64,000 bases of DNA from Rhodospirillales bacterium (GTDB taxonomy: Bacteria; Pseudomonadota; Alphaproteobacteria; Rhodospirillales; SHVU01), in assembly GCA_009691105.1 (NCBI GenBank), contig SHVU01000005.1, positions 1-64,000 on the forward strand, in the 5' to 3' direction. A program made the translations under genes and the position numbers. The notes under the pieces were generated by a model that saw only the letters and a program-made list of their open reading frames with translations, had not been told where the DNA came from and ran no database searches. The stretch's first letter is position 1; every line of letters starts with the position of its first letter. This document shows, one piece after another, positions 3,526-45,271 of the stretch.

Positions 3526-5457
3526 GTGAATTTCAGCAAGAACATCGCGGTCTGGGCCATCATCGTTGTCGTTCTGATTGGCCTTTTTAACCTGTTTCAA
3601 GGAACGCCGACGCGCGGGCCGCAGTCGAACCTTACCTATTCGGAATTCAACGAGCAGGTCGAAAACGGCCAAGTAGTCACGGTCACGATCAAAGGCAAAG
3701 AGATCGTCGGCCAGCTGCGCGACGGCCGCAATTTCTCGACCTATGCCCCCGACGATGCCGGCCTGATCGCCCGGCTTAACCAGAAGCGGGTCGGGATCCG
3801 CGCCGTGCCGTCGGACGACAATTCGCCGTCCCTGTGGGGTGTGCTGATTTCATGGTTCCCGATGCTGCTCTTGATCGGCGTCTGGATCTTCTTCATGCGC
3901 CAGATGCAGTCGGGCGGCGGCAAAGCCATGGGCTTCGGCAAGTCCCGGGCCCGCTTGCTGACCGAAAAGACCGGCCGGGTGACCTTCGAAGACGTCGCCG
4001 GCATCGACGAAGCCAAGCAGGAACTTCAGGAAATCGTCGAATTCTTGAAGGATCCTCAGAAATTCCAGCGCCTCGGCGGCAAGATCCCGAAAGGGTGCTT
4101 GTTGGTTGGTCCTCCGGGCACCGGCAAGACGCTGCTCGCCCGCGCCATCGCCGGCGAAGCCAACGTGCCGTTCTTCACCATTTCAGGCTCCGACTTCGTC
4201 GAAATGTTCGTCGGCGTCGGTGCGTCGCGCGTCCGCGATATGTTCGAGCAAGGCAAAAAGAACGCGCCGTGCATCGTCTTCATCGACGAGTTGGACGCGG
4301 TCGGGCGGCATCGTGGCGCCGGCCTTGGAGGTGGCAACGACGAGCGCGAGCAGACGCTGAACCAGTTGCTCGTCGAGATGGACGGTTTCGAATCGAATGA
4401 AGGCGTCATCCTGATTGCGGCGACCAACCGGCCGGACGTTCTCGACCCGGCGTTGTTGCGTCCAGGCCGCTTCGACCGCCAGATCGTCGTTCCTAATCCA
4501 GACATCATCGGTCGCGAAAAGATTCTCAAAGTTCATATGCGCAAGGTGCCGCTCGCTCCCGATGTCGAGCCGCGCGTCGTCGCGCGGGGCACGCCCGGGT
4601 TCTCCGGCGCCGATCTCGCCAACCTCGTCAACGAGGCGGCGTTGCTCGCGGCGCGTCTCGGCAAGCGGGTCGTGACCATGGCCGACTTCGAGGCCGCCAA
4701 GGACAAGGTCCTGATGGGCGTCGAGCGTCGTTCCTTGGTCATGAGCGAAGACGAAAAACGTCTGACCGCCTATCACGAAGGCGGCCATGCCATTGTCTCG
4801 CTGACCGTGCCGAAACATGATCCGCTCCATAAGGTGACGATCATTCCGCGCGGCCGAGCTCTCGGCCTCACGATGTCGCTGCCGGAGCGCGACCAGTACA
4901 GCCTGTCCTATATGCAGCTCCGCTCGAAGCTCGCGTCGCTGTTCGGCGGCCGGGTCGCCGAGGAAATCGTCTTCGGTATCGAGAACATCACCAGCGGCGC
5001 GGCCATGGATATCTCCCAGGCGACCAATCTGGCGCGCCGGATGGTCACCGAGTGGGGATTCAGCGAGCGTCTTGGCCGTCTGCGCTTTACCGACAATGAG
5101 GAAGAGATCTTCCTCGGCCATTTGGTCACGCAGCGGAAGAACGTATCCGACGCGACGGCGCAAGCCATCGACGAGGAAATCCGCAAGCTCATCGACGAGG
5201 CCGAGACGACGGCGCGGACGATCCTGACCGAGCGTCGCGTCGAACTCGATCGCCTGGCCACGGCGTTGCTCGAATACGAGACGCTGTCTGGCGACGAAGT
5301 CAAAGCCGTCATGCGTGGTGAAACGATTATCCGCCCCGAAAACGACGACCGTCCCCAGCCCAAAGATACGGGACGGCGGTCGAGCGTGCCGGCGAGTGGC
5401 AAAGCCAAGGATCAGCCGACCGGCGGGCTGGAGGCGAAACCCCAGCCGGGCGCGTAG
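3526..5457 (+). CDS. ftsH: ATP-dependent zinc metalloprotease FtsH
   Basis: Walker [27 protein letters not shown] zinc motif, two N-terminal TM regions. Confidence 0.98.
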
Positions 5458-32915: not shown

Positions 32916-33491
32916 CTAGGCTGGAAGGGTGGCGATGGTAAGCACGACGCCGCCCTTCAACGCCACGACGTCGCAGTCGCGCTCGTCCACCGACCGGCCG
33001 AGAACGACGAAGTCGGTCGCGGTGTCGAGGGCCAGGACCGGATGGTGCCAGACGGCACGCCGATAGTTCACGCCTTGGCGGCCATTGGTGAGGAAAGCGC
33101 GGATCTGCGCCGGATCGGGCGCATCGCCGCCGGCTGGTGCGACAATGACCAGGAACCGACGCTCGCTCAGGGGCATGAAGGCCTGGGTCGAGAGCGGGTG
33201 GCGCTCGAGGCTGCGGCAGGCGAACGGCAGTCGAGCCGGGGTCACCCGAAAGACGCTCAGCACGGCATGGCCGCCGTCGCGGTCGAGTTCGAGTTTCGTG
33301 AAATCGTCGAAGCGGACCGCCGTGCCGGCGTTGGCGTCGATGCCGCCGGTCTCCGGGATTTCGATCACCTCGCCGAACGGCGCGAAGGCCTGAGCCGTGA
33401 GCGGCTCGACCGTAAGCCAGCGCTCGATGGTGGCGACACTCACGACGGTCTTACGACGCAGCGCGATGGCGCGGCGCGGCTGCCCCGACAT
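32916..33491 (-). CDS. Ureidoglycolate lyase (AllA-like)
   Basis: LTAQAFAPFGEVIE; VFRVTPARLPFACRSLERHPLSTQAFMPL; RRAVWHHPVLAL; start probably internal. Confidence 0.85.
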   Translation of the reverse strand: MSGQPRRAIALRRKTVVSVATIERWLTVEPLTAQAFAPFGEVIEIPETGGIDANAGTAVRFDDFTKLELDRDGGHAVLSVFRVTPARLPFACRSLERHPLSTQAFMPLSERRFLVIVAPAGGDAPDPAQIRAFLTNGRQGVNYRRAVWHHPVLALDTATDFVVLGRSVDERDCDVVALKGGVVLTIATLPA

Positions 33492-34422
33492 GGCGAGCCA
33501 GCGCCGCCTCGTCGACGACCTTTCGAACTCGCGCCGTAATATCGGGCGCGACTGGCAGAAGCGGTGCCCGGGGCACGGCGCTCTCGATGATGCCGAGATG
33601 CTTCAGGCCCTCTTTGATGCGGGTATGCATATCCATCCGCGGCGGCGCACCGTAGATCGTCCGGACCACCGGATAGAGCTGATCGCTGGCTTGCCGCATC
33701 GCCTTCAGGTCGAGCTTCTCGGCGGCTCGCCAGAGATCGATCAGCATGTGCGGCGTTAGGCTGGCGAGGCCCGACAGGATGCCGTCGGCGCCGACCGCGA
33801 CCTGGCCCAGGAACCAATCGAAGTTGGAGGGCAGGATGGCGCATTTGGGCGCGGCCTTTTTCACCAGGCGCCAGTTGTCTTCGTAGGCGGTCAGCGTGTC
33901 GCTGCCTTCCTTGATGGCGAGGACGCGGCTGCCGAGCTTGGCGATCTCGACCAAGGTCTCGGTCGGATAGCCCATACCGGAGCCGAGTGGGTATTGGAAA
34001 ATCGAAATCGGAATATCAACGGCGTCGAGCACGGCTTTGACGTAGGCGAGCGGGACGTCGGGCGTCCGCGTGCCGCCCGCCGCCATCTGCGGCATTGGGA
34101 ACAGCACGGCGATGTCGGCGCCAGCGGCTTTGGCGTCGCGAGTCTGGCGAATCGCCTCGCCGGTCGAATAGGGGATGATCCCCGTCATCAGCGGCTTCGT
34201 GCCATTAAGATACTTGCGGGTATATTCGATGACCTGGACGCGTTCCTCCGGCGTCAGCGCCGCGCCTTCGCCGGCGTGGCCGTTGACGAAGACCGACGAG
34301 ATGCCGTCGGGTGTCGTGCAGTAATCGAGGAGCCGGCTGTAGCTCGCCCAGTCGATGTCGCGCTTCTCGGTGAACGGCAGGACCGTGGCGACAATGACGT
34401 CGGTCAGGCGAATGTCGGGCAT
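33451..34422 (-). CDS. Dihydrodipicolinate synthase (DapA/NAL) family protein
   Basis: IVATVLPFTEKRDIDWASYSRLLDY; GHAGEGAALTPEERVQVIE; IFQYPLGSGMGYP; VLAIKEGSDT Schiff-base Lys. Confidence 0.9.
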   Translation of the reverse strand: MPDIRLTDVIVATVLPFTEKRDIDWASYSRLLDYCTTPDGISSVFVNGHAGEGAALTPEERVQVIEYTRKYLNGTKPLMTGIIPYSTGEAIRQTRDAKAAGADIAVLFPMPQMAAGGTRTPDVPLAYVKAVLDAVDIPISIFQYPLGSGMGYPTETLVEIAKLGSRVLAIKEGSDTLTAYEDNWRLVKKAAPKCAILPSNFDWFLGQVAVGADGILSGLASLTPHMLIDLWRAAEKLDLKAMRQASDQLYPVVRTIYGAPPRMDMHTRIKEGLKHLGIIESAVPRAPLLPVAPDITARVRKVVDEAALARHVGAAAPRHRAAS

Positions 34423-34462: not shown

Positions 34463-36040
34463 TTAGCGGCGGGCGTTGCCGCGAGCCAGAATGTCAGCGC
34501 GAAGTCCCATGGGGCCTTCGCGGTAGAGCCGAGTGTCCATGGTCTTGAGGTCGGACGCGACCGCTGGGGTGAAGCCCATGCGGTCGAGAATGTCCTCTTT
34601 GACGCGCATTCCTGGCGCGATCTCGACCAGCTCAACGCCGCGAGGCCCGAACCGAAAGACCGCGCGTTCGGTCACGACCATGGCGGCTTGGCCGCGCTCT
34701 CGGCCGACCCGTCCATTGTAGCTTATCTGATTGACCCGCGGCACGAACTTGCGGACCGTGCCATCCGTGTCGATAAGGATTTTGCCGCCCGCAATGCCGA
34801 CTTTCAGGCCGCCGCCGGTCAACGTCCCGCTGAAGACAATGCGCTTGGCGTTTTGGGTAATGTCGATGAAGCCGCCGGCGCCGTCGTTGCGGTCGCCGAA
34901 ACGCGTCACGTTGACGTTGCCCTCGGCGTCGATTTCGGCGAAGGACACGAAGGCGACGTCGAGGCCGCCGCCGTCATAGAAATCGAATTGGTAGGGCTGG
35001 TCGATGATGGCGCGGGGGTTGATGGCCGTTCCGAAATGCAGGCCTTGGCCGGCGATACCGCCGATGACTCCCGCTTCGACGGTCAGCGTGAACAAATCCT
35101 CGATCTCTTCCTCGGCGACGACGTTGGGGATGGCCGCGGAGACGCCGACGCCCATGTTGATGACGGCGCCGGGCGAAAGTTCGAACGCGGCGCGGCGGGC
35201 GATCACGCGGCGCTCGCTCAACGGTTCGGGTTTGATGGACGCGAAGGGTTGGGAGATTTCTCCGGACCGGCTGGGGTCATAAGTGACGGCATAATTCTGC
35301 TTCTGGTCGGGATCGACCACGAAATGATCGATCAGGAATCCCGGAATGCGAACCATCTGCGGATGCAGGCTGCCGCGCTTGGCCAGCCGCTTCACCTGAC
35401 AGATCACGGTGCCACCGGCATTGTGGACGGCCTGGGCCATCGACATGCCTTCCAACGTCGTCGCCTCATGCTCGAGGGAGACGTTGCCGTCCTCATCGGC
35501 GGTCGTGCCGCGAATCAGCGCGACGTTGGCTTGCAGGGCTTTGTAGAACAGCCATTCGCGACCGCCGAGGGTGACAACCTCGACCAAGTCTTCGGTCGTC
35601 TTGGCGTTCATTTTGCCGCCTTCCTGGCGGGGATCGATGTAGGTGTGGAGCCCGACGTGGGTCACGACGCCGGGCTGTTTCGCCGCCGTCGCCCGATAGA
35701 GTTGGCAGAGCACACCCTGCGGCAGGTTGTAGGCCTCGATCTCATTGGTAACGATCAGCGTTTTCATGAACGGCAACTGCAGGCCGTAATTGCCGCCGAT
35801 GACGCGTTTAACGAGGCCTTTGTGGGCGAGGCGATTGAGACCCTGTCCGGTGACCGCACCGATACCCGTCGTGTGAATGATCGTCAGGTCGCGCGGCATG
35901 CCGCCGTCTAGGAAGCGCTTTTCGAGAGCGACCATGACCGACTCGGCGATGCCCATGCCGGCCGATCCGCCGACGATCATGGAATCGCCGTCGCGGAGCA
36001 ATCCGGCGGCCTCAGCTGCGCTGATGACGGATTTCAGCAT
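34463..36040 (-). CDS. Class I (AtoD/AtoA-fused) acyl CoA-transferase
   Basis: Alpha motif DSMIVGGSAGMGIAESVMVALEKRFLDGG; beta motif VINMGVGVSAAIPNVVAEE; GGFIDITQNAKRIVFSGT. Confidence 0.92.
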   Translation of the reverse strand: MLKSVISAAEAAGLLRDGDSMIVGGSAGMGIAESVMVALEKRFLDGGMPRDLTIIHTTGIGAVTGQGLNRLAHKGLVKRVIGGNYGLQLPFMKTLIVTNEIEAYNLPQGVLCQLYRATAAKQPGVVTHVGLHTYIDPRQEGGKMNAKTTEDLVEVVTLGGREWLFYKALQANVALIRGTTADEDGNVSLEHEATTLEGMSMAQAVHNAGGTVICQVKRLAKRGSLHPQMVRIPGFLIDHFVVDPDQKQNYAVTYDPSRSGEISQPFASIKPEPLSERRVIARRAAFELSPGAVINMGVGVSAAIPNVVAEEEIEDLFTLTVEAGVIGGIAGQGLHFGTAINPRAIIDQPYQFDFYDGGGLDVAFVSFAEIDAEGNVNVTRFGDRNDGAGGFIDITQNAKRIVFSGTLTGGGLKVGIAGGKILIDTDGTVRKFVPRVNQISYNGRVGRERGQAAMVVTERAVFRFGPRGVELVEIAPGMRVKEDILDRMGFTPAVASDLKTMDTRLYREGPMGLRADILARGNARR

Positions 36041-36045
36041 GTCCT

Positions 36046-37185
36046 CTAAGACTCTTTCACCATCTGGCGGGCGATGATGATCCGCTGGATCTGGTTCGTG
36101 CCCTCGTAGATTTGCGGCAGCTTGATGTCGCGGAACAGCCGCTCGACCCGATAGTCCTGGGAATAGCCGTTGCCGCCGTGGATCTGCAGCGCGTTGGTGA
36201 CGTGCTTCATCGCCATATCGGTGGTGAAGAGCTTCATGTGCGCCGCTTCCTTCACAATCGGATGGCCGGCGTCATAGAGACGCGCCGTCGAATGCACGAG
36301 GAGCCGCGACGCGGCGATATCGGTCGACATGTCGGCGAGCATGAACTGCACGGCTTGATGCTCGACGATGGGCTTGCCGAACTGGACGCGGCTCTTCGCA
36401 TAGTTGAGCGCATCGTCCATGGCGGCCTGGGCAATCCCCAGCGACATCGCCGACATCACGATCCGGCTGTAGTTGAAATTCTCCATGGCCATCTTGAAGG
36501 CGCCATGCTCCGGCCCGATGCGGTTCCGAGCCGACACCCGGCAATCTTCGAAGATGACCTGACAGGTGCCAAGGCCGTGCATGCCGAGAAGCTTTTCCTT
36601 CTTGCCGCGCTTCACGCCCGGATTGGCGCCGTCGACGATGAAGCAGGAGACGCCGCGGTGCCCGGCATCGGGATCGGTCTTGGCGAAGACGAAGATGAAG
36701 TTCGCGACCAGGCCGAGGCTCACCCAGGCCTTGGTGCCGTTGATGATGTAGTCGCCTCCGTCCTTGATCGCAGTCGTCCGCATCGAGGCGACGTCGGACC
36801 CGAAGTCGGGCTCGGAGGTGCAGCTTGCCGGGATCAGCTCGCCGGTCAACAGGCCGGGAATGAAGCTCTTGTGATGGTCGTCGCCATGCTGGTCGAGGAA
36901 CAGCACCGCTTCGTGGGGCAGGGCATAGATGTTGCCGACGCTGCCCGAGCACCGCGCCAGCTCTTCGATGGCCAGCGCCATGCACGTCGTGTCGAAGCCG
37001 CTGCCGCCGGCGGCTTCGGGCAGGTTCACGCCATAAAGGCCGAGGTCGGCCATGGCGCGATAAATGTCGGTGGGGAACTCGTCAGTCCGATCAATCTCGG
37101 TGGCGCGGGGTAAGACCGTCGATTCCGCGAACTTGCGAACCGTGTCGCGGATCGTCTTCTGGCTCTCGCTGTAGAACGGCTCCAC
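36046..37185 (-). CDS. Acyl-CoA dehydrogenase
   Basis: ACADs signatures TSEPDFGSDVASMRTTAIKDGGDYIINGTKAW; QIHGGNGYSQDYRVERLFRDIKLPQIYEGTNQIQRIIIARQ. Confidence 0.95.
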   Translation of the reverse strand: MEPFYSESQKTIRDTVRKFAESTVLPRATEIDRTDEFPTDIYRAMADLGLYGVNLPEAAGGSGFDTTCMALAIEELARCSGSVGNIYALPHEAVLFLDQHGDDHHKSFIPGLLTGELIPASCTSEPDFGSDVASMRTTAIKDGGDYIINGTKAWVSLGLVANFIFVFAKTDPDAGHRGVSCFIVDGANPGVKRGKKEKLLGMHGLGTCQVIFEDCRVSARNRIGPEHGAFKMAMENFNYSRIVMSAMSLGIAQAAMDDALNYAKSRVQFGKPIVEHQAVQFMLADMSTDIAASRLLVHSTARLYDAGHPIVKEAAHMKLFTTDMAMKHVTNALQIHGGNGYSQDYRVERLFRDIKLPQIYEGTNQIQRIIIARQMVKES

Positions 37186-37211: not shown

Positions 37212-37442
37212 TCAGTATTCGTGAGCGAGCCAGGGCTTGTTATTGGGCGTCGTCTTGCGCCCGCCATCACTGAACAGCCGGCCGGAATGGGCGAGGGTGT
37301 CCTCGGCGGAATCGAAGACGTAGACCGTGATGTCCTTCTTCGCGACGCCATAGCTTGATGCCACGGCCTCGGTCAGGCTTTTGACGAGCGCGCGTCGTTT
37401 GGCAATAGAACGCGTCAGGCCCCAGAAGCAGACAGTGTGCAT
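37212..37442 (-). CDS. Tautomerase-superfamily small protein lacking the usual Pro-1 (N-terminus MHTVCFWG)
   Basis: Paralogous to 37450..37689 and 37738..37962 (RSIAKRRALVKSLTEAVASSYGVAKKDITVYVFD). Confidence 0.78.
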   Translation of the reverse strand: MHTVCFWGLTRSIAKRRALVKSLTEAVASSYGVAKKDITVYVFDSAEDTLAHSGRLFSDGGRKTTPNNKPWLAHEY

Positions 37443-37449
37443 TCCGGTT

Positions 37450-37689
37450 CTATCGTCCTCGGCGACGAGACGGTTTGGCGATTTTATTCTTTTTCTTTTG
37501 CTCGCGGTCGTGATCCGAGACCAGGACACCGAAGTGCGCCGCATTCTCGCGCGGCACATCGAAGATGTAGACGGTCACGATCTCTTTGGGCACGTCATAG
37601 GATTTGACGACGGCGTCGGTGAGCCGCTTCGCGACTTGGCGTTTCTTGGCGATGGGGCGCTTGAAGCCATAGAGGTAGACGATCGGCAT
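37450..37689 (-). CDS. 4-oxalocrotonate tautomerase family protein
   Basis: MPIVYLYGFKRPIAKKRQVAKRLTDAVVKSYDVPKEIVTVYIFDV; Pro at position 2. Confidence 0.85.
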   Translation of the reverse strand: MPIVYLYGFKRPIAKKRQVAKRLTDAVVKSYDVPKEIVTVYIFDVPRENAAHFGVLVSDHDREQKKKNKIAKPSRRRGR

Positions 37690-37737
37690 CGGGGTCTCCG
37701 GTAAAGGTGAGAGTGGGCGCGGTGGGAAAAGCGGCGA

Positions 37738-37962
37738 CTATTTACGCCGGGCTTTTCGTGCCGGCTTCTTCTTATGTTGCGGAAGATCGGATGCCATCAT
37801 TCGTCCCGCACCCGAGTGCTCGGCATCGACGTCGATCAAGAAGACGGTGACCGATTCCTTCGGTATGCCGTACGCGTTCACGATCGTATCGGTGATTCCG
37901 TGGATGACCTTGCGCCGCTTAGCGGCGGGGCGGCTAAAGCCATAGACGTGAACGATCGGCAT
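37738..37962 (-). CDS. 4-oxalocrotonate tautomerase family protein
   Basis: MPIVHVYGFSRPAAKRRKVIHGITDTIVNAYGIPKESVTVFLIDV; Pro at position 2. Confidence 0.85.
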   Translation of the reverse strand: MPIVHVYGFSRPAAKRRKVIHGITDTIVNAYGIPKESVTVFLIDVDAEHSGAGRMMASDLPQHKKKPARKARRK

Positions 37963-38016: not shown

Positions 38017-38832
38017 CTAGGCGGCCCGCCAGACCACCGGAAACAGGTCGCAGTCGAGCTTGTCGCCCGGCTTCAGGCCCGGGTCGCGCAGAAGACGGAT
38101 CATCTTCTTGCGCTGGATGAAGCGTGCATCGTCGCCCGTAAAGCGCACCGACAAAGCCCGCCGCCGGCGTTCCGACGTCGTATTGCCGCGCGCCCCGTGA
38201 AGGGTGAGGGCCGAGAACATCACAGCGTCGCCGGCTTTCATGTCCCACGACAGGATGTTGAAATCGTCGCGGTGGCTTTCGACGTCCGGCAATTTTTCGA
38301 ACTCGTCGGTTTCGACGGCGCCCGTCCCGCGAAAATCGAACGGCTGATAGCGATGACCCGAGACGTGCGATCCCGCCACGAACTCGAGCCCGCCGTTGGT
38401 GCCGTCGACATCGTCGAGGGCGAGCCACATCGAGGCGACTTGGCGTCCCTCGGCCGGCCAGTAGTTCATGTCCTGGTGCCAGGGCGTCGGCGTCACCGCA
38501 CCCGGGTCCTTCACCATCAAATGGTCGTAGAAGAGATTGACCTTGGTGGCGCGCATGACGCGGCCGACCACACCGGCGGCGGGCGATTCAAACGCGTAGG
38601 CCCGAAAGTCCGGATCGAAGGTCCACATGAACTTCTCGGAGAGAAACATCCCCGGATCCTGCGGGCTGTAGCGCTCGGTGAACGGCCCGGGGTTTTTCTC
38701 GATCCGATCGATGGCGTTGCGCAGGCGATCGACCCATTCCGTGTTCAGAACCTTGCGGATGCAAACGGCTCCGTCGCGCTCATAGGCGCGGACGTCATCT
38801 TCGGTAACCCGTGGCCGCACAGCGTCATTCAT
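38017..38832 (-). CDS. Phytanoyl-CoA dioxygenase (PhyH) family protein
   Basis: TPWHQDMNYWPAEGRQVASMWLALDDVDGTNGGLEFVAGSH (HxD motif), LHGARGNTTSERRRALSVRF. Confidence 0.9.
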   Translation of the reverse strand: MNDAVRPRVTEDDVRAYERDGAVCIRKVLNTEWVDRLRNAIDRIEKNPGPFTERYSPQDPGMFLSEKFMWTFDPDFRAYAFESPAAGVVGRVMRATKVNLFYDHLMVKDPGAVTPTPWHQDMNYWPAEGRQVASMWLALDDVDGTNGGLEFVAGSHVSGHRYQPFDFRGTGAVETDEFEKLPDVESHRDDFNILSWDMKAGDAVMFSALTLHGARGNTTSERRRRALSVRFTGDDARFIQRKKMIRLLRDPGLKPGDKLDCDLFPVVWRAA

Positions 38833-38899: not shown

Positions 38900-39664
38900 C
38901 TAGCGGCCCGTGAACTTGGGTTTACGCTTTTCGACGAAGGCCTTGATGCCCTCGACATGGTCTTCGCTTTGCCACAGCAGCAATTTGCGCTCGAGGCTCA
39001 GGGATTCATCCAAAGGCTTCTCGAAGGCCATGAGGGTCTCGGCCTTGACCATCTGGGCCGTGAGCGGCGAATGCTCGGCGATCCGTGCTGCGATGGTCAG
39101 GGCCCGCTCCAGTGTCTGGGCGGCGGGAACGATCTCGGCGGCAAGGCCCCACGCGCCGGCAGTCTTGGCGTCGATCGGATCTCCGGTGAGGCCCATCAAC
39201 ATTGCTCGGGCTTTGCCGACAACCCGGGGCAGGCGTTGCGTGCCACCGTCGCCGGCAAACGCGGCGATCTTGATCTCGGGTGCGCCGAACTTGGCGGTAT
39301 CGCCGGCAATGACGATGTCGCAGAGCATGGTCAGTTCCATCCCGCCGCCCAGCGCCCAGCCGTTGACCGCCGCGACCATGGGTTTGCGGAATTTCTCGAT
39401 GGTCTTCCACGACGTCAGGCGATTCTTCTCGGCCCACATCGGCATGTGGCCGGTGGGCATCTCTTTGATGTCGGCGCCCGCGGAGAAGGCCTTCTCATTG
39501 CCGGTCAGCACGACGACGCGGATGGCGTCGTCAGCATCGGCTTCGCGAAGCGCCGTCGCGACTTCGACCAGAAGATCCTTGGACAACGCGTTCAGGGACT
39601 TCGGCCGGTTGAGCGTAATCAGCATAACCCCCGGTCGGGGCTTGGCGACGATGATGTGCTGCAT
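38900..39664 (-). CDS. Enoyl-CoA hydratase/isomerase family protein
   Basis: LITLNRPKSLNALSKDLL; FSAGADIKEM; AAVNGWALGGGMELTMLCDIVIAGDTAKFGAPEI. Confidence 0.93.
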   Translation of the reverse strand: MQHIIVAKPRPGVMLITLNRPKSLNALSKDLLVEVATALREADADDAIRVVVLTGNEKAFSAGADIKEMPTGHMPMWAEKNRLTSWKTIEKFRKPMVAAVNGWALGGGMELTMLCDIVIAGDTAKFGAPEIKIAAFAGDGGTQRLPRVVGKARAMLMGLTGDPIDAKTAGAWGLAAEIVPAAQTLERALTIAARIAEHSPLTAQMVKAETLMAFEKPLDESLSLERKLLLWQSEDHVEGIKAFVEKRKPKFTGR

Positions 39665-39691: not shown

Positions 39692-40714
39692 CTACGCGCT
39701 GCGCCGCGGGACGGGCGCCGCGGGATCGATCAACCCTTCGTGTTTGAGCTCGGCCCAAAAGTCCGCCGGTATCGACGTCTTGAGGCCACGGACATAGCTG
39801 CGCAGATGAGCGGCGCTGCGACCGCCCATGACAATCGATGCGACGGCCGGATGCGCCAAAGGAAATTGGAGTGCCGCCGCGGCCAGCGGAACGCGATGGG
39901 CGCGCGCCACGCGTTCCAGCGCTTCGACCTTGGCGCGAACGGCAGGCGGCGGCGGACGATGGCCATAGGTCGAGCGCTTGCGAAGACCACGCGCCAAGAC
40001 GCCCGTGTTGAAGACTTGGCCGATGACGACGCCGATTTTGCGCGCCTCGCAGAGCGGCAGCATCGAGGCCAGCGCCGACTGTTCGAGTAGCGAATAGCGG
40101 CCGGCAAGAAGGAAGCAATCGAAGTCGCCCTGTTGGGCGCCAAGCTGACAGACACGCCAGTCGACCGAACCGATGCCGATGGCGCGCAGCACGCCCTCGT
40201 CGCGCAGGCGCTTGAGCGCCCGATACGTTCCCTTCATCGCTTCGCCGAAGCGGTCTTTCCAACTCGGTCCGTGAGTGGGCGCATCGGGGTCGTGAATGAG
40301 TCCGATATCGACCCGATCGAGACCGAGCCGGAGCAAGCTGTGTTCGACAGATCGCAGCGCCGCGTCATAGCCGTAGTCGAAGCGGACGGAGAAGGGCAGG
40401 CGGTCGATATAGGGTTTGCGGCCAGGATTGTTCGGCTCGGGGCTCAGCAATCGGCCGATCTTGGTCGAGAGCACGTAGCCGGCGCGCGGATAGGCTCGCA
40501 AGCTTCGGCCCATGCGGTGTTCGCCGAGACCGCCACCGTAATAGGCGGCGGTGTCGAAATACCGGACCCCGAGATCATGGGCCTCGGCAATCGCGGCCAT
40601 CGCGTCCGGTTCCGGACACGGACGGTGAAGATTGCCAAGTTGTGACCCTCCAAGCCCGAGAGCCGTCAGCTTGAGCTTGGTCTTGCCGAGGCGGCGGAGG
40701 GCTGTGGGATTCAT
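39692..40714 (-). CDS. Aldo/keto reductase
   Basis: LTALGLGGSQLGNL; YFDTAAYYGGGLGEHRMGRSL; LGLDRVDIGLIHDPD; start MNPTAL at 40714. Confidence 0.9.
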   Translation of the reverse strand: MNPTALRRLGKTKLKLTALGLGGSQLGNLHRPCPEPDAMAAIAEAHDLGVRYFDTAAYYGGGLGEHRMGRSLRAYPRAGYVLSTKIGRLLSPEPNNPGRKPYIDRLPFSVRFDYGYDAALRSVEHSLLRLGLDRVDIGLIHDPDAPTHGPSWKDRFGEAMKGTYRALKRLRDEGVLRAIGIGSVDWRVCQLGAQQGDFDCFLLAGRYSLLEQSALASMLPLCEARKIGVVIGQVFNTGVLARGLRKRSTYGHRPPPPAVRAKVEALERVARAHRVPLAAAALQFPLAHPAVASIVMGGRSAAHLRSYVRGLKTSIPADFWAELKHEGLIDPAAPVPRRSA

Positions 40715-40820
40715 GATTCTTGGCGTCTGATCAGGCCGGAGGTAGGATCGTTTGACCATACAGCCAGTAGGCGTCCCGCGAAAGTCCGGCGACGCCGCTC
40801 TGACCCCGAGGGACAATCCC

Positions 40821-41738
40821 ATGCCTAAGAAATTACGCGGCACCTACACCGTCATCGTCACGCCCTTCACCAATGACAATAAGATCGACGAAACGATGCT
40901 GCGCTGGCTCGTCGATTTCCAGATCTCCGAGGGCATTCACGGAATTATCGCGCTCGCCTCGAACGGCGAGTTTCTGTCGCTGAACGATCAGGAGCGCCAC
41001 GACGTCGCGCGGATCGTGATCGACCAGGCGCGCGGCCGAGTCCCCGTCGTCATCGGCACCGCCGCCGAGAACACCGATCACGTCATCCACTACACCAAAG
41101 ACGCGGAGAAGCTCGGCGCCGACGCTGCGATGATCCTGACGCCGTACTATGCCTGGATCGACGAGGAAGAGATCTACACGCACTACAAGCGTATCGCTGA
41201 GGCGGTGTCGCTGCCGATCATGCTCTACAACCATCCGGCATCGACCGTGCTCGACATCAAGCCGCCTCTGGTGGCGCGCTTGGCCGAGATCGACAACATC
41301 CTCTACATCAAAGAATCGACGACCGACACGCGCCGGGTCTATCGCATCAACGATCTGTGCAAGGGCAAGATCACGGTCTTCGCGGGCTATCTCGGCTACG
41401 AGTCGTTCATGGTCGGAGCGGAGGGCTGGGTCTCGGTCTGCGCCAACATCCTGCCGCGCAAATCGGCGCAGTTGTTCGAACTTGCCGTCGACAAGAACGA
41501 CAAGGACGAGGCCTGGGTCGTCTTCAAGGAGCTCGTGCCGCTGATCGATTTCCTCGGCGATCATCTCTACGCCCACGGCATGAAGGCGGCCTTCAAGATG
41601 CTGGGTCGAGACATGGGGATTCCGCGCCCTCCACGCTTGCCCATGCGCAAGGAACTTGAGCCGAAGCTGCGGCAGGTCATGACCGATCTCGGTCTCTTCA
41701 AGAAAGAGCTGCCGCCGGTCAGGGCCAACGCGGCGTGA
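40821..41738 (+). CDS. Dihydrodipicolinate synthase (DapA/NAL) family protein
   Basis: GTYTVIVTPFTNDNKIDETMLRWLVDFQISEGIHGIIALASNGEF; MLYNHPAST; LYIKESTTDTRRVY. Confidence 0.93.
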   Translation: MPKKLRGTYTVIVTPFTNDNKIDETMLRWLVDFQISEGIHGIIALASNGEFLSLNDQERHDVARIVIDQARGRVPVVIGTAAENTDHVIHYTKDAEKLGADAAMILTPYYAWIDEEEIYTHYKRIAEAVSLPIMLYNHPASTVLDIKPPLVARLAEIDNILYIKESTTDTRRVYRINDLCKGKITVFAGYLGYESFMVGAEGWVSVCANILPRKSAQLFELAVDKNDKDEAWVVFKELVPLIDFLGDHLYAHGMKAAFKMLGRDMGIPRPPRLPMRKELEPKLRQVMTDLGLFKKELPPVRANAA

Positions 41739-43246
41739 GCCGACGCTATACCGTCATCCGCGGCGGCCGGCTTCTCGATGGCGCCGGTCGCAATGGGGAC
41801 TTTGCGGACATTCTGATCGACGGCGACACGATCCGGACCATCGGGCCCGCGGGCCTTGCTGCGCCGGATGATGCCCTTGTCGTCGACGCTTCGGACAGGT
41901 TGCTGATCCCTGGACTCGTCAACGCTCATACCCACGGCGACGTGTCGTTCGCCAAGGGGCTCGGCGACAAGTGGACGTTGGAGCTTCTGCTCAACGCCAA
42001 TCCGTTGACCAGCGAGCGCTTCCGTCTCGAGGACAAACACCTCGCGGCGAAACTCGCCGCTGCCGAAATGGTCCTCGGAGGATGCACGGCCTGTTACGAC
42101 CTCTTTTCCGAGTTTCCGGTTCCCTCGGCCGATGGATTGGCGGCGGTGGGTCGCGCCTATGCCGAGATCGGCATTCGCGCCGTTGTCGCGCCGCTGATGG
42201 CGGACCGGAGTTTCTGGCAAGCCATCCCGGGTTTGATCGAGGCGATGCCCGAGGCGTTGCGCGCCCGGGTCGGGCCAGCGACGACCGATGCGGCCGATGC
42301 GGCGATCGAGTCGTGCCGGCGAGCCCTCAAGGAATGGCGATTGGATCGCGACCAGGTGCGTCTCGCTCTCGCCCCGACCATTCCGTATCACTGCGCCGCC
42401 GATTTTTTCCGAAGCTGCCGCCGCCTCGCCGATGAATACGGCGTCGGTATCCACAGCCATCTCGCGGAGTCCAAAGTTCAGGCGGTCGTCGGCCGCCACA
42501 AGTTCGGCATGAGTCTCGCCCGTCATCTGGACAGTCTCGGTGTGATCGGCCCTGACTTCACAGCCGCTCACGCTGTCTGGGTCGATGCCGACGATATCGC
42601 GCTGCTGGCCGATCGCGGCGCCACGGTGGCGCACAATCCGACGAGCAACCTGCGGCTTGGCGTCGGAGCAGCCCCGGTCAAGGCGATGTTGGATGCTGGC
42701 CTTGGTGTCGGCGTCGGCACCGATGCCGCGACCTGCTCGGATTCTCTCAACATGTTCGAGGCGATGCGGCTCGCCTGTTATCTTAGCCGGATTCATTCGC
42801 CGGACCCGGCCCAATGGCTGGGCGCCGAAGACGCGCTGCGCCTGGCCACCGAAGGCAGCGCCAGGGCTTTAGGGTTCGGGGATCGGATCGGCCAGCTCGC
42901 GCCGGGCTTCAAGGCCGACGTCGTGTTCCTGGATCTTGGTCGAATCGCCTACGTGCCGTTTAACCACGCGGCCCGGCAGGTGGTGTTCCAGGAGAACGGT
43001 GCCTCCGTCGACAGCGTCATGATCGGTGGCGCCTTCGTTGTCCGGGACGGCCGTCCTGTGAGCTTTGACCTCGCCAAACTCCGGGCCGAGGTCGAGCAAA
43101 CGATGGACCGCATCCGGGCCGAGACCGCGGAATCCGCGGCTCTGGTCAAGGCTCTAGAGCCCGTCGTGTCACGCTTCTGCGTCGCCTTATCGCAGGAGCC
43201 TTTCCACGTGCATCGCTACGTCGGAGAGGCGCCGCGCGCGCATTGA
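41735..43246 (+). CDS. Amidohydrolase, ATZ/TRZ-type (deaminase/chlorohydrolase subfamily)
   Basis: LIPGLVNAHTHGDVSFAKGLGD; HSHLAESKVQ; TAAHAVWVDADDIALLADRGATVAHNPTSNLRLG; GTDAATCSDSLNMFEAMRLA; overlaps the DapA-family stop. Confidence 0.92.
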   Translation: MSRRYTVIRGGRLLDGAGRNGDFADILIDGDTIRTIGPAGLAAPDDALVVDASDRLLIPGLVNAHTHGDVSFAKGLGDKWTLELLLNANPLTSERFRLEDKHLAAKLAAAEMVLGGCTACYDLFSEFPVPSADGLAAVGRAYAEIGIRAVVAPLMADRSFWQAIPGLIEAMPEALRARVGPATTDAADAAIESCRRALKEWRLDRDQVRLALAPTIPYHCAADFFRSCRRLADEYGVGIHSHLAESKVQAVVGRHKFGMSLARHLDSLGVIGPDFTAAHAVWVDADDIALLADRGATVAHNPTSNLRLGVGAAPVKAMLDAGLGVGVGTDAATCSDSLNMFEAMRLACYLSRIHSPDPAQWLGAEDALRLATEGSARALGFGDRIGQLAPGFKADVVFLDLGRIAYVPFNHAARQVVFQENGASVDSVMIGGAFVVRDGRPVSFDLAKLRAEVEQTMDRIRAETAESAALVKALEPVVSRFCVALSQEPFHVHRYVGEAPRAH

Positions 43247-43340
43247 CAAGGCTTCGGCGAGAGGGTCAGATAAATGTCACAATTCAATCACGAACGACTG
43301 GTCAATGGCTGCGCTTACCGACGATACATGGGGACCGTCT

Positions 43341-44234
43341 ATGAACGCCTTCGAAGGCAGCTACACCGTCATGTTGACGCCGTTCACCGAGGGCGGCGCG
43401 AAGGTCGACCTCGCGGCGACGCGCCGGTTCGTCGATTGGCAGATCAAGGAAGGCACTCCAGGCCTCATTCCATTGGGCTCGACCGGCGAGTTTCTGTCGG
43501 TCGCCGATGACGAGCGCACTCAATTCATCGAAACGATCATCGATCAGGCGAAGGGGCGCATCCCGGTCATCGTCGGCACCGCCTCCGAATGGTCCGACGA
43601 AGCCGTGCGCTACAGCAAGGAGGCCGAGCGCCTCGGCGCCGCCGGCGTCATGGTCATCCCGCCGTTCTATGCGACGCCCACCGACGATGAGTTGTTCGAG
43701 CACTACCGCCGGATCGGCGAGGCCATCTCGATTCCGATCATGGTCTACAACAACCCGTTCACGTCGAACGTCGATATGAAGCCGGCGCTGATCGCTCGGC
43801 TCGGCCAGATCGACAACGTCCTCTACGTCAAGGAATCGAGCGGCGACATCGGCCGCGGGCGCGAGATCGAACGGCTCTCGAAGGGCAAGGTCACGGTTTT
43901 CGCGGGCTATCACGCCTACGACACGATCGTCTGCGGGGCCAAGGGCTGGGTATCGGTCATCGGCAACATCGCGCCGCGCCTGTCGCAGGATCTCTACGAG
44001 ATCACGAGCAAGGGCGACCTCGTCAAAGGCCGCGATCTGTATCACCGCCTGCTGCCGACGCTCGACGCGATTTCGGGCGATCTCTACGTGTCGGCCACGA
44101 AGGCGGCGATGCCGTTGGTGGGAATGCCGATGGGTGAGCCGCGTCCGCCGCGCTTGCCCTTGCCGCAAGATCGTACTGCTGGGTTGAAGCGCGCGCTCGC
44201 CGATCTCGGGGTGCTCGCCAAAAAGGCGGCCTAA
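43341..44234 (+). CDS. Dihydrodipicolinate synthase (DapA/NAL) family protein
   Basis: GSYTVMLTPFTEGGAKVDLAATRRFVDWQIKEGTPGLIPLGSTGEF; MVYNNPFTS; LYVKESSGDIGRG. Confidence 0.93.
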   Translation: MNAFEGSYTVMLTPFTEGGAKVDLAATRRFVDWQIKEGTPGLIPLGSTGEFLSVADDERTQFIETIIDQAKGRIPVIVGTASEWSDEAVRYSKEAERLGAAGVMVIPPFYATPTDDELFEHYRRIGEAISIPIMVYNNPFTSNVDMKPALIARLGQIDNVLYVKESSGDIGRGREIERLSKGKVTVFAGYHAYDTIVCGAKGWVSVIGNIAPRLSQDLYEITSKGDLVKGRDLYHRLLPTLDAISGDLYVSATKAAMPLVGMPMGEPRPPRLPLPQDRTAGLKRALADLGVLAKKAA

Positions 44235-44296
44235 CGCCCGGTGGGTGTTCGAAAGGTCGTTCGTCGTCTGTACAGACCATGCAAGGGAGGAGTCAC

Positions 44297-45271
44297 ATGA
44301 AAAAGTTTTCTCTGCTGTCGTTGAGTGGTGCGCTCGTGATCCTGGTGTCCGGGATGGCGATGGCGGCCGATTTGACGTTCCGGGCCGGCCACTCGGCGGC
44401 GCCGGGCGAACCGTATGACGAAGGCCTGAAGAACATGAAGGCCGGGCTTGAGAAGCTGACCAACGGGAAGGCGACGATGCAGATCTTCCCGAGCAACCAA
44501 GTCGGCAACGAGCCGGACATGATCAAGGGCGTGCTGACCGGCACTCTCGACATCACCGTCCCGTCGAACGCGCCGCTGACGGCGTTCGTCGAAGAGCTCA
44601 AGATTTTCGACATGCCGTTCTTGTTCCGCGACCAGCGGCACATGAACCGGGTTTTGCGTGGACCGGCCCGCGATGAGATCGCCAAGGCCGTCGCCGCGAA
44701 GAACCTGCAACTGCTCGGCGTCTATGGCGTCGGGACGCGCCACATCATGACCAAGAAGGCTGTCGCCTCGATCGACGACTTGAAGGGCATGAAGATCCGG
44801 ACCATGCAGAGCCAGTATCACCTGGATGCGTTCCGAGCCTTCGGCGCCAATCCCACGGCGGTCAACTACAGCGAACTCTATGGGTCGCTGCAGACCGGCG
44901 TCGTCGACGGGGCCGAAGCCGCCAACACCAACTACTACAGCATGAAGTTCTACGAGCAGGCTCCGAACTGGGCCATGGTCGGTTGGCTGATCCTCACGGC
45001 GCCGCTGATCATGCAGAAGCAGAAGTTCGAAGCTCTGCCCAAGGATATCCAGACTGCCCTTATGCAGTCGGGTGAAGAGTCGGCGATCTTCGAGCAGGAC
45101 CTCTACAACAAGACGGACGACGCCTTTTTCGACGAGCTGAAGAAAAAGGGCATCAAGGTGACGCAGCCTGATCTGAAGCCCTTCCTCGCAGCCTCGAAAC
45201 AGGTCCACGAGAAGCATCTGACGACCGAAACCGATAAGCGCATTCTCAAGCTGATCCAAGACACGCAATAA
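44297..45271 (+). CDS. dctP: TRAP transporter substrate-binding protein (DctP)
   Basis: Signal peptide; GHSAAPGEPYDEGLKNMKAGLEKLTNGKATMQIFPSNQVGNEPDMIKGV; GMKIRTMQSQYHLDAFRAFGANPTAVNYSELYGSLQTGVVDGAE. Confidence 0.95.
   Translation: MKKFSLLSLSGALVILVSGMAMAADLTFRAGHSAAPGEPYDEGLKNMKAGLEKLTNGKATMQIFPSNQVGNEPDMIKGVLTGTLDITVPSNAPLTAFVEELKIFDMPFLFRDQRHMNRVLRGPARDEIAKAVAAKNLQLLGVYGVGTRHIMTKKAVASIDDLKGMKIRTMQSQYHLDAFRAFGANPTAVNYSELYGSLQTGVVDGAEAANTNYYSMKFYEQAPNWAMVGWLILTAPLIMQKQKFEALPKDIQTALMQSGEESAIFEQDLYNKTDDAFFDELKKKGIKVTQPDLKPFLAASKQVHEKHLTTETDKRILKLIQDTQ

Follow-up and report, generated by a model that had tools for sequence, protein, structure and literature searches.

The third of three tandem tautomerase genes in the window (the whole stretch of 64,000 nucleotides that was analysed), T3, encodes a short protein that lacks the N-terminal proline of its neighbours and keeps Arg-11. 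Judged from its sequence and by analogy with known enzymes, we put at roughly one half the probability that T3 is an α-CaaD-like partner of the B type described below, donating Arg-11 within a mixed hexamer whose Pro-1 would come from T2 or T1. A class of Pro-1-less tautomerases is already known; what is new is a trio of which one member is Pro-less and has probably arisen, in this lineage alone, out of MP-bearing B types, together with fused homologues at the same locus that divide Pro-1 and Arg-11 between their domains. The source is one metagenome-assembled genome (MAG) of a marine Rhodospirillales bacterium (1.88 Mb, 85% complete), a single assembly, so that T3 comes from one genome. The genes of the locus, in their order in the window, are:

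39692..40843, - strand, aldo/keto reductase (AKR); the mechanically called ORF probably starts too far upstream
38900..39664, - strand, enoyl-CoA hydratase (ECH)
38017..38832, - strand, PhyH-type dioxygenase, directly upstream of T1 with a 54-nt gap
37738..37962, - strand, T1, tautomerase of 74 aa starting MPIV (MPIVHVYGFSRP...), with Pro-1, Arg-11, a disrupted or shifted AHxG loop and a basic tail
37450..37689, - strand, T2, complete tautomerase of 79 aa starting MPIV (MPIVYLYGFKRP...), with Pro-1, Arg-11, His and a basic tail
37212..37442, - strand, T3, 4-OT-like tautomerase of 76 aa starting MHTVCFWG (MHTVCFWGLTRS...), without Pro-1, keeping Arg-11, the AHxG loop and a C-terminal ...KPWLAHEY
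36046..37185, - strand, acyl-CoA dehydrogenase, directly downstream of T3 with a 26-nt gap
34463..36040, - strand, CoA-transferase (FadX-like), conserved beside the tautomerase slot in relatives
33451..34422, - strand, DHDPS-family aldolase/dehydratase (a)
40752..45271, + strand, divergent arm of DHDPS-family (b), amidohydrolase, DHDPS-family (c) and TRAP solute-binding DctP

T1, T2 and T3 are adjacent paralogous ORFs on the - strand and lie exactly where a sequence-only reading had placed three tandem tautomerase paralogues, an assignment now secured by Pfam PF01361 (Tautomerase), of which all three exceed the gathering score (39.2, 30.1 and 23.3 bits for T1, T2 and T3) and are the sole matches across the 85% complete assembly. 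As homologues, they raise no issue of chance resemblance among themselves. The common motif that had been read as R-x-A-KR does run through all three, and is better worded as RxxAK[RK]R...TV[YF]xxD. The stop of T2 and the start of T3 are 7 nt apart, a spacing compatible with coupled translation; scans of the operon for promoters and terminators gave scores below the shuffled mean.

The AlphaFold2 models of T3 (pLDDT 88-96 over residues 1-40, low for the tail) and T1 contain the same β-α-β core, which together with PF01361 places the proteins in the 4-OT subgroup of the tautomerase superfamily. Pro-1 is present in T1 and T2 and absent from T3, which does not bar membership because about 3% of recognised members are without it (PMC5818174). 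Closer assignments do not fit the trio: Arg-11 is found in all three, as in 4-OT sensu stricto (2-hydroxymuconate tautomerase), but the Arg-39 column holds Thr, and none reaches an NCBIfam equivalog cut-off. For DmpI (NF041920, cut-off 70 bits) the scores are 45.9 for T2, 38.4 for T1 and 27.1 for T3. DmpI (PDB 3m20) is the best full-length PDB sequence match of T2 and its best-scoring NCBIfam model, and has the same one-residue-shorter loop before the helix; the 3m20 protein, however, lacks Arg-11. In a Foldseek search with the T3 model the highest-ranking matches were CaaD, DmpI, 4-OT and solved heterohexamers (8t9o, 8t9p, 3mb2); the E-values are modest (0.0019 at best), a consequence of the short chain. 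The heterohexameric 4-OTs (3mb2 being from Chloroflexus aurantiacus) are solved mixed hexamers of short tautomerases; they are distant from T3 in sequence, and the likeness is one of fold.

That the third protein lacks Pro-1 proved correct. In-frame start-like codons upstream of T3 (ATG 37559, ATG 37544, GTG 37529) are none of them followed by Pro, nor is any downstream one (CTG, ATT or GTG), and the ATG at 37442 aligns column for column with the Met of relatives; the alternative MP start, which had been named as an observation that would refute the reading, was therefore rejected. The collection of free tautomerase N-termini comprises 80 different ones, of which 79 start MP and only that of T3 starts MH; three AP cases are internal second domains and not free N-termini. 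An error of base calling or of assembly, or a misplaced start, concealing a T3 that really begins MP, is very improbable on these grounds: a single C-to-A difference separates the codons CCC and CAC and T3 is known from one assembly, but residue 3 departs as well (Ile or Gln to Thr), Met-1 sits in the conserved register, and none of the other possible starts supplies a Pro.

Close relatives were found in very few of the 317 genomes of the order that were searched. A single-sequence scan of the genome contigs gave no close relative, and an alignment scan gave only four loci, all in Rhodospirillales MAGs. The best matches to T3 lie in three marine MAGs (JASLLZ, JASLZL, JASLLV), each with two adjoining genes, one of A type (T2-like) and one of B type (T3-like). 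T3 and the B types have in common a C-terminal signature, DGG...KPWL..EY, that T1, T2 and the A types lack, and by this signature T3 is a B-type protein. All B types of the three MAGs start MP. Since these nearest relatives have both the MP start and the signature of T3, its Pro-1 was most likely lost in its own lineage, from MP-bearing B types. The conservation of the His-Thr N-terminus, proposed earlier as a check, gave a negative answer, His-2 and Thr-3 being conserved in no relative. Both genes of the A+B pairs keep Pro-1 and Arg-11, so that even these pairs do not prove a mixed oligomer, and they sit in related surroundings (L090, L091) that are less similar to the T1-T3 locus than those considered next. 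A plasmid search for T3 and its B-type kin gave no close relative and one weak match in Pantoea.

Related loci, compared by tblastn of the window genes, show how the tautomerase slot varies. In genome G088 (L094) it holds one tautomerase, standing between PhyH and the CoA-transferase; a phosphotriesterase-family gene (PTE) is also present, and the four families of the divergent arm recur in unchanged order. In G040 (L092) AKR and ECH precede one fused two-domain tautomerase, and the CoA-transferase and DHDPS-a follow it; in G673 (L095) a fused tautomerase is followed by the acyl-CoA dehydrogenase and the CoA-transferase. By these gene orders the slot is filled by a single gene, by a fused gene or by three separate genes. 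The fused proteins include P0004, P0005 and the plasmid proteins of L127 and L128; on annotated plasmids of one Comamonadaceae strain and one Thioclava strain, the fused gene, annotated 'hypothetical protein', stands before acyl-CoA dehydrogenase, CoA-transferase and MaoC dehydratase genes. In the Comamonadaceae record the gene at the place of the CoA-transferase is likewise annotated 'hypothetical protein'. For the plasmid fused genes (L127 12001-12414, L128 8977-9393) a tautomerase-family annotation is possible. In L093 (G019:C77, about 3827-4087) a fused tautomerase is broken, its second domain running into a truncated CoA-transferase, by either a deletion or an assembly joint.

The ten full-length fused proteins that were aligned divide the active site without exception. 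In domain 1 Pro-1 is invariant and Arg-11 is missing, and in domain 2 Arg-11 (R74) is invariant and Val or Ile takes the place of Pro; the loop His of both domains (H52, H115) is invariant as well. In cis-CaaD, too, Pro-1 and Arg-73/Glu-114 lie in different halves (PMC5818174). This reciprocal loss, as in CaaD and cis-CaaD, argues that a site in this family combines the Pro-1 of one unit with the Arg-11 of the partner unit. No publication on such same-locus fused homologues was found among open-licence papers.

T3 can be likened to domain 2 of the fused proteins and to α-CaaD, because it has no usable Pro-1 and retains Arg-11 and the AHxG loop. The fused tautomerase occupies the same slot as the trio, and its domain 2, like T3, has Arg-11 and His and no Pro; it differs in being one polypeptide, and its domain 1 lacks Arg-11, whereas T1 and T2 keep it. 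The likeness to CaaD lies in the two kinds of short subunit, one chain having the functional Pro-1 and the other Arg-11. The catalytic Pro-1 is that of the β chain. In the PDB sequences (1s0y), the alignment gives Pro-1 and Leu-11 for β, and Arg-11 and Glu-52 for α. Both CaaD chains start with Pro, however, which T3 does not, no dehalogenase context was seen at the T1-T3 locus, and of the residues that define CaaD (α Arg-8, Arg-11 and Glu-52, β Pro-1) the trio has Arg-11 and a partner Pro-1, without a counterpart of Arg-8 and with His in the Glu-52 column.

On this footing the three genes would go back to a single tautomerase gene in an operon for CoA-dependent catabolism, and T3 would be a B-type partner without a catalytic N-terminal proline in a mixed hexamer. 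In a productive site Pro-1 of T2 (or T1) would transfer the proton, while T3, on the other side of the dimer interface, would contribute its Arg-11 and loop His; a site that needs Pro-1 of T3 would be idle. The reaction may isomerise an unsaturated acid or an oxo acid, either ahead of its CoA-dependent breakdown or in the course of it. It is from the sequences that we infer the mixed oligomer itself, the identity of the partner (T1 or T2), the dead sites and the reaction. Against the model count the one-sidedness of the loss within the window, where T2 and T1 keep Arg-11, and the weak Shine-Dalgarno sequence of T3. The earlier proposal of a mixed oligomer thus stands as the best reading, resting on the A+B pairs of relatives and on the same-locus fused proteins that divide Pro-1 and Arg-11, while its subunit composition is something we only infer. 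Its premise, the existence of hetero-oligomers in which one partner lacks Pro, found no confirmation: both CaaD chains start with Pro, and at the time of the 2017/2018 survey of the superfamily (PMC5818174) not one of its 346 Pro-1-less members was a characterised protein.

A three-component tautomerase, in which T1 would bring Pro-1 with a broken His loop, T3 the His loop without Pro-1, and T2 a complete site, seems quite unlikely. The loop His of T1 is lost by gap-free alignment and kept (EHSG) if compensating 3-residue indels are allowed. Were the three-component reading true, the trio would be an unfused, split equivalent of the same-locus fused enzymes that divide Pro and Arg, and would represent a natural step between a homohexamer and an obligate hetero-oligomer. 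One conserved locus offers a single gene, a split fused protein and a trio with a Pro-less member, with A+B pairs in neighbouring contexts, and these variants form a ready set for asking whether the loss of Pro-1 follows from hetero-oligomer formation.

The three copies have diverged to different extents. End branches in the tree, which is poorly resolved with 62 columns and does not resolve the order of duplications, are 0.16 for T2, 0.76 for T3 and 1.16 for T1, and T2 is nearest to the single tautomerase gene of G088 (63% identity); by these measures T2 is the conservative, least diverged copy and T1 and T3 are the diverged ones. It could thus be supposed that T3, as a redundant paralogue, has begun to decay, with T2 (and T1) carrying the function and the loss of Pro-1 reflecting relaxed selection, the more so as G088 makes do with one gene at the same place and the Shine-Dalgarno sequence of T3 is weak. 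This is doubtful, in that the ORF is intact, its GC by codon position (0.55/0.49/0.77) is coding-like, GC3 included, and Arg-11, the AHxG loop and the B-type C-terminus have been kept. The core of T3 appears constrained despite the missing Pro-1, because invariant columns are preferentially retained: 16 columns do not vary in the eight compared relatives (T1 and T3 left out), and T3 matches 12 of them, against an overall consensus match of 22/60 (p = 0.00035); with T1 added to the comparison the count is 7 of 11, which is weaker (p = 0.06).

T3 might also form a hexamer of its own, using another group (the α-amine of a retained Met-1, His-2, the loop His) or acting as a non-enzymatic binding or regulatory protein. 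A Met-His start is expected to keep its Met, since Met before His is retained under the aminopeptidase rule. Structures without an N-terminal Pro have been solved, and in one of them, overlaid on 4-OT, the Ser-2 N lies 1.7 Å and the Met-1 N 3.7 Å from the Pro-1 N (PMC9813972). Pro-1 is missing from 346 of 11,395 superfamily sequences, 13 of them in the 4-OT subgroup; those conserving the rest of the active site belong mostly to other subgroups, and how Pro-1-less tautomerases work was listed as an open question (PMC5818174). The 4-OT subgroup members without Pro-1 described by Davidson et al. (PMC5818174) are, like T3, short, with checked starts and the other active-site residues kept; their commonest substitutes are Ser, Ile and Ala, whereas T3 has His at position 2, and T3, unlike them, stands in tandem with two paralogues that do bear Pro. 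This embedding, and the absence of His-2 and Thr-3 from every relative, make a self-sufficient T3 unlikely, and the Arg-11-donating partner of a mixed hexamer is preferred.

With regard to the wider surroundings, three DHDPS-family genes lie within 11 kb (33451-34422, 40752-41738, 43305-44234), accompanied by amidohydrolase, phosphotriesterase-family and TRAP transporter genes in a conserved catabolic cluster, on which a literature search found nothing. The cluster is partly common to other Rhodospirillales, an 8-Mb genome of the same class, Thioclava and Comamonadaceae.

The very basic tails that had been noticed on two of the genes belong to T1 and T2 (pI 10.5 and 10.4). Within the T family they are found on T1, T2 and the A type of G040, the others being without, and are not conserved. 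Besides T1, T2 and the A type in L007, strongly basic C-terminal tails were seen on tautomerases of different subfamilies (L016 1480-1809, + strand; L017, reverse strand; L062), and in two marine MAGs the tail contains a histone-H1-like KAPAKR repeat.
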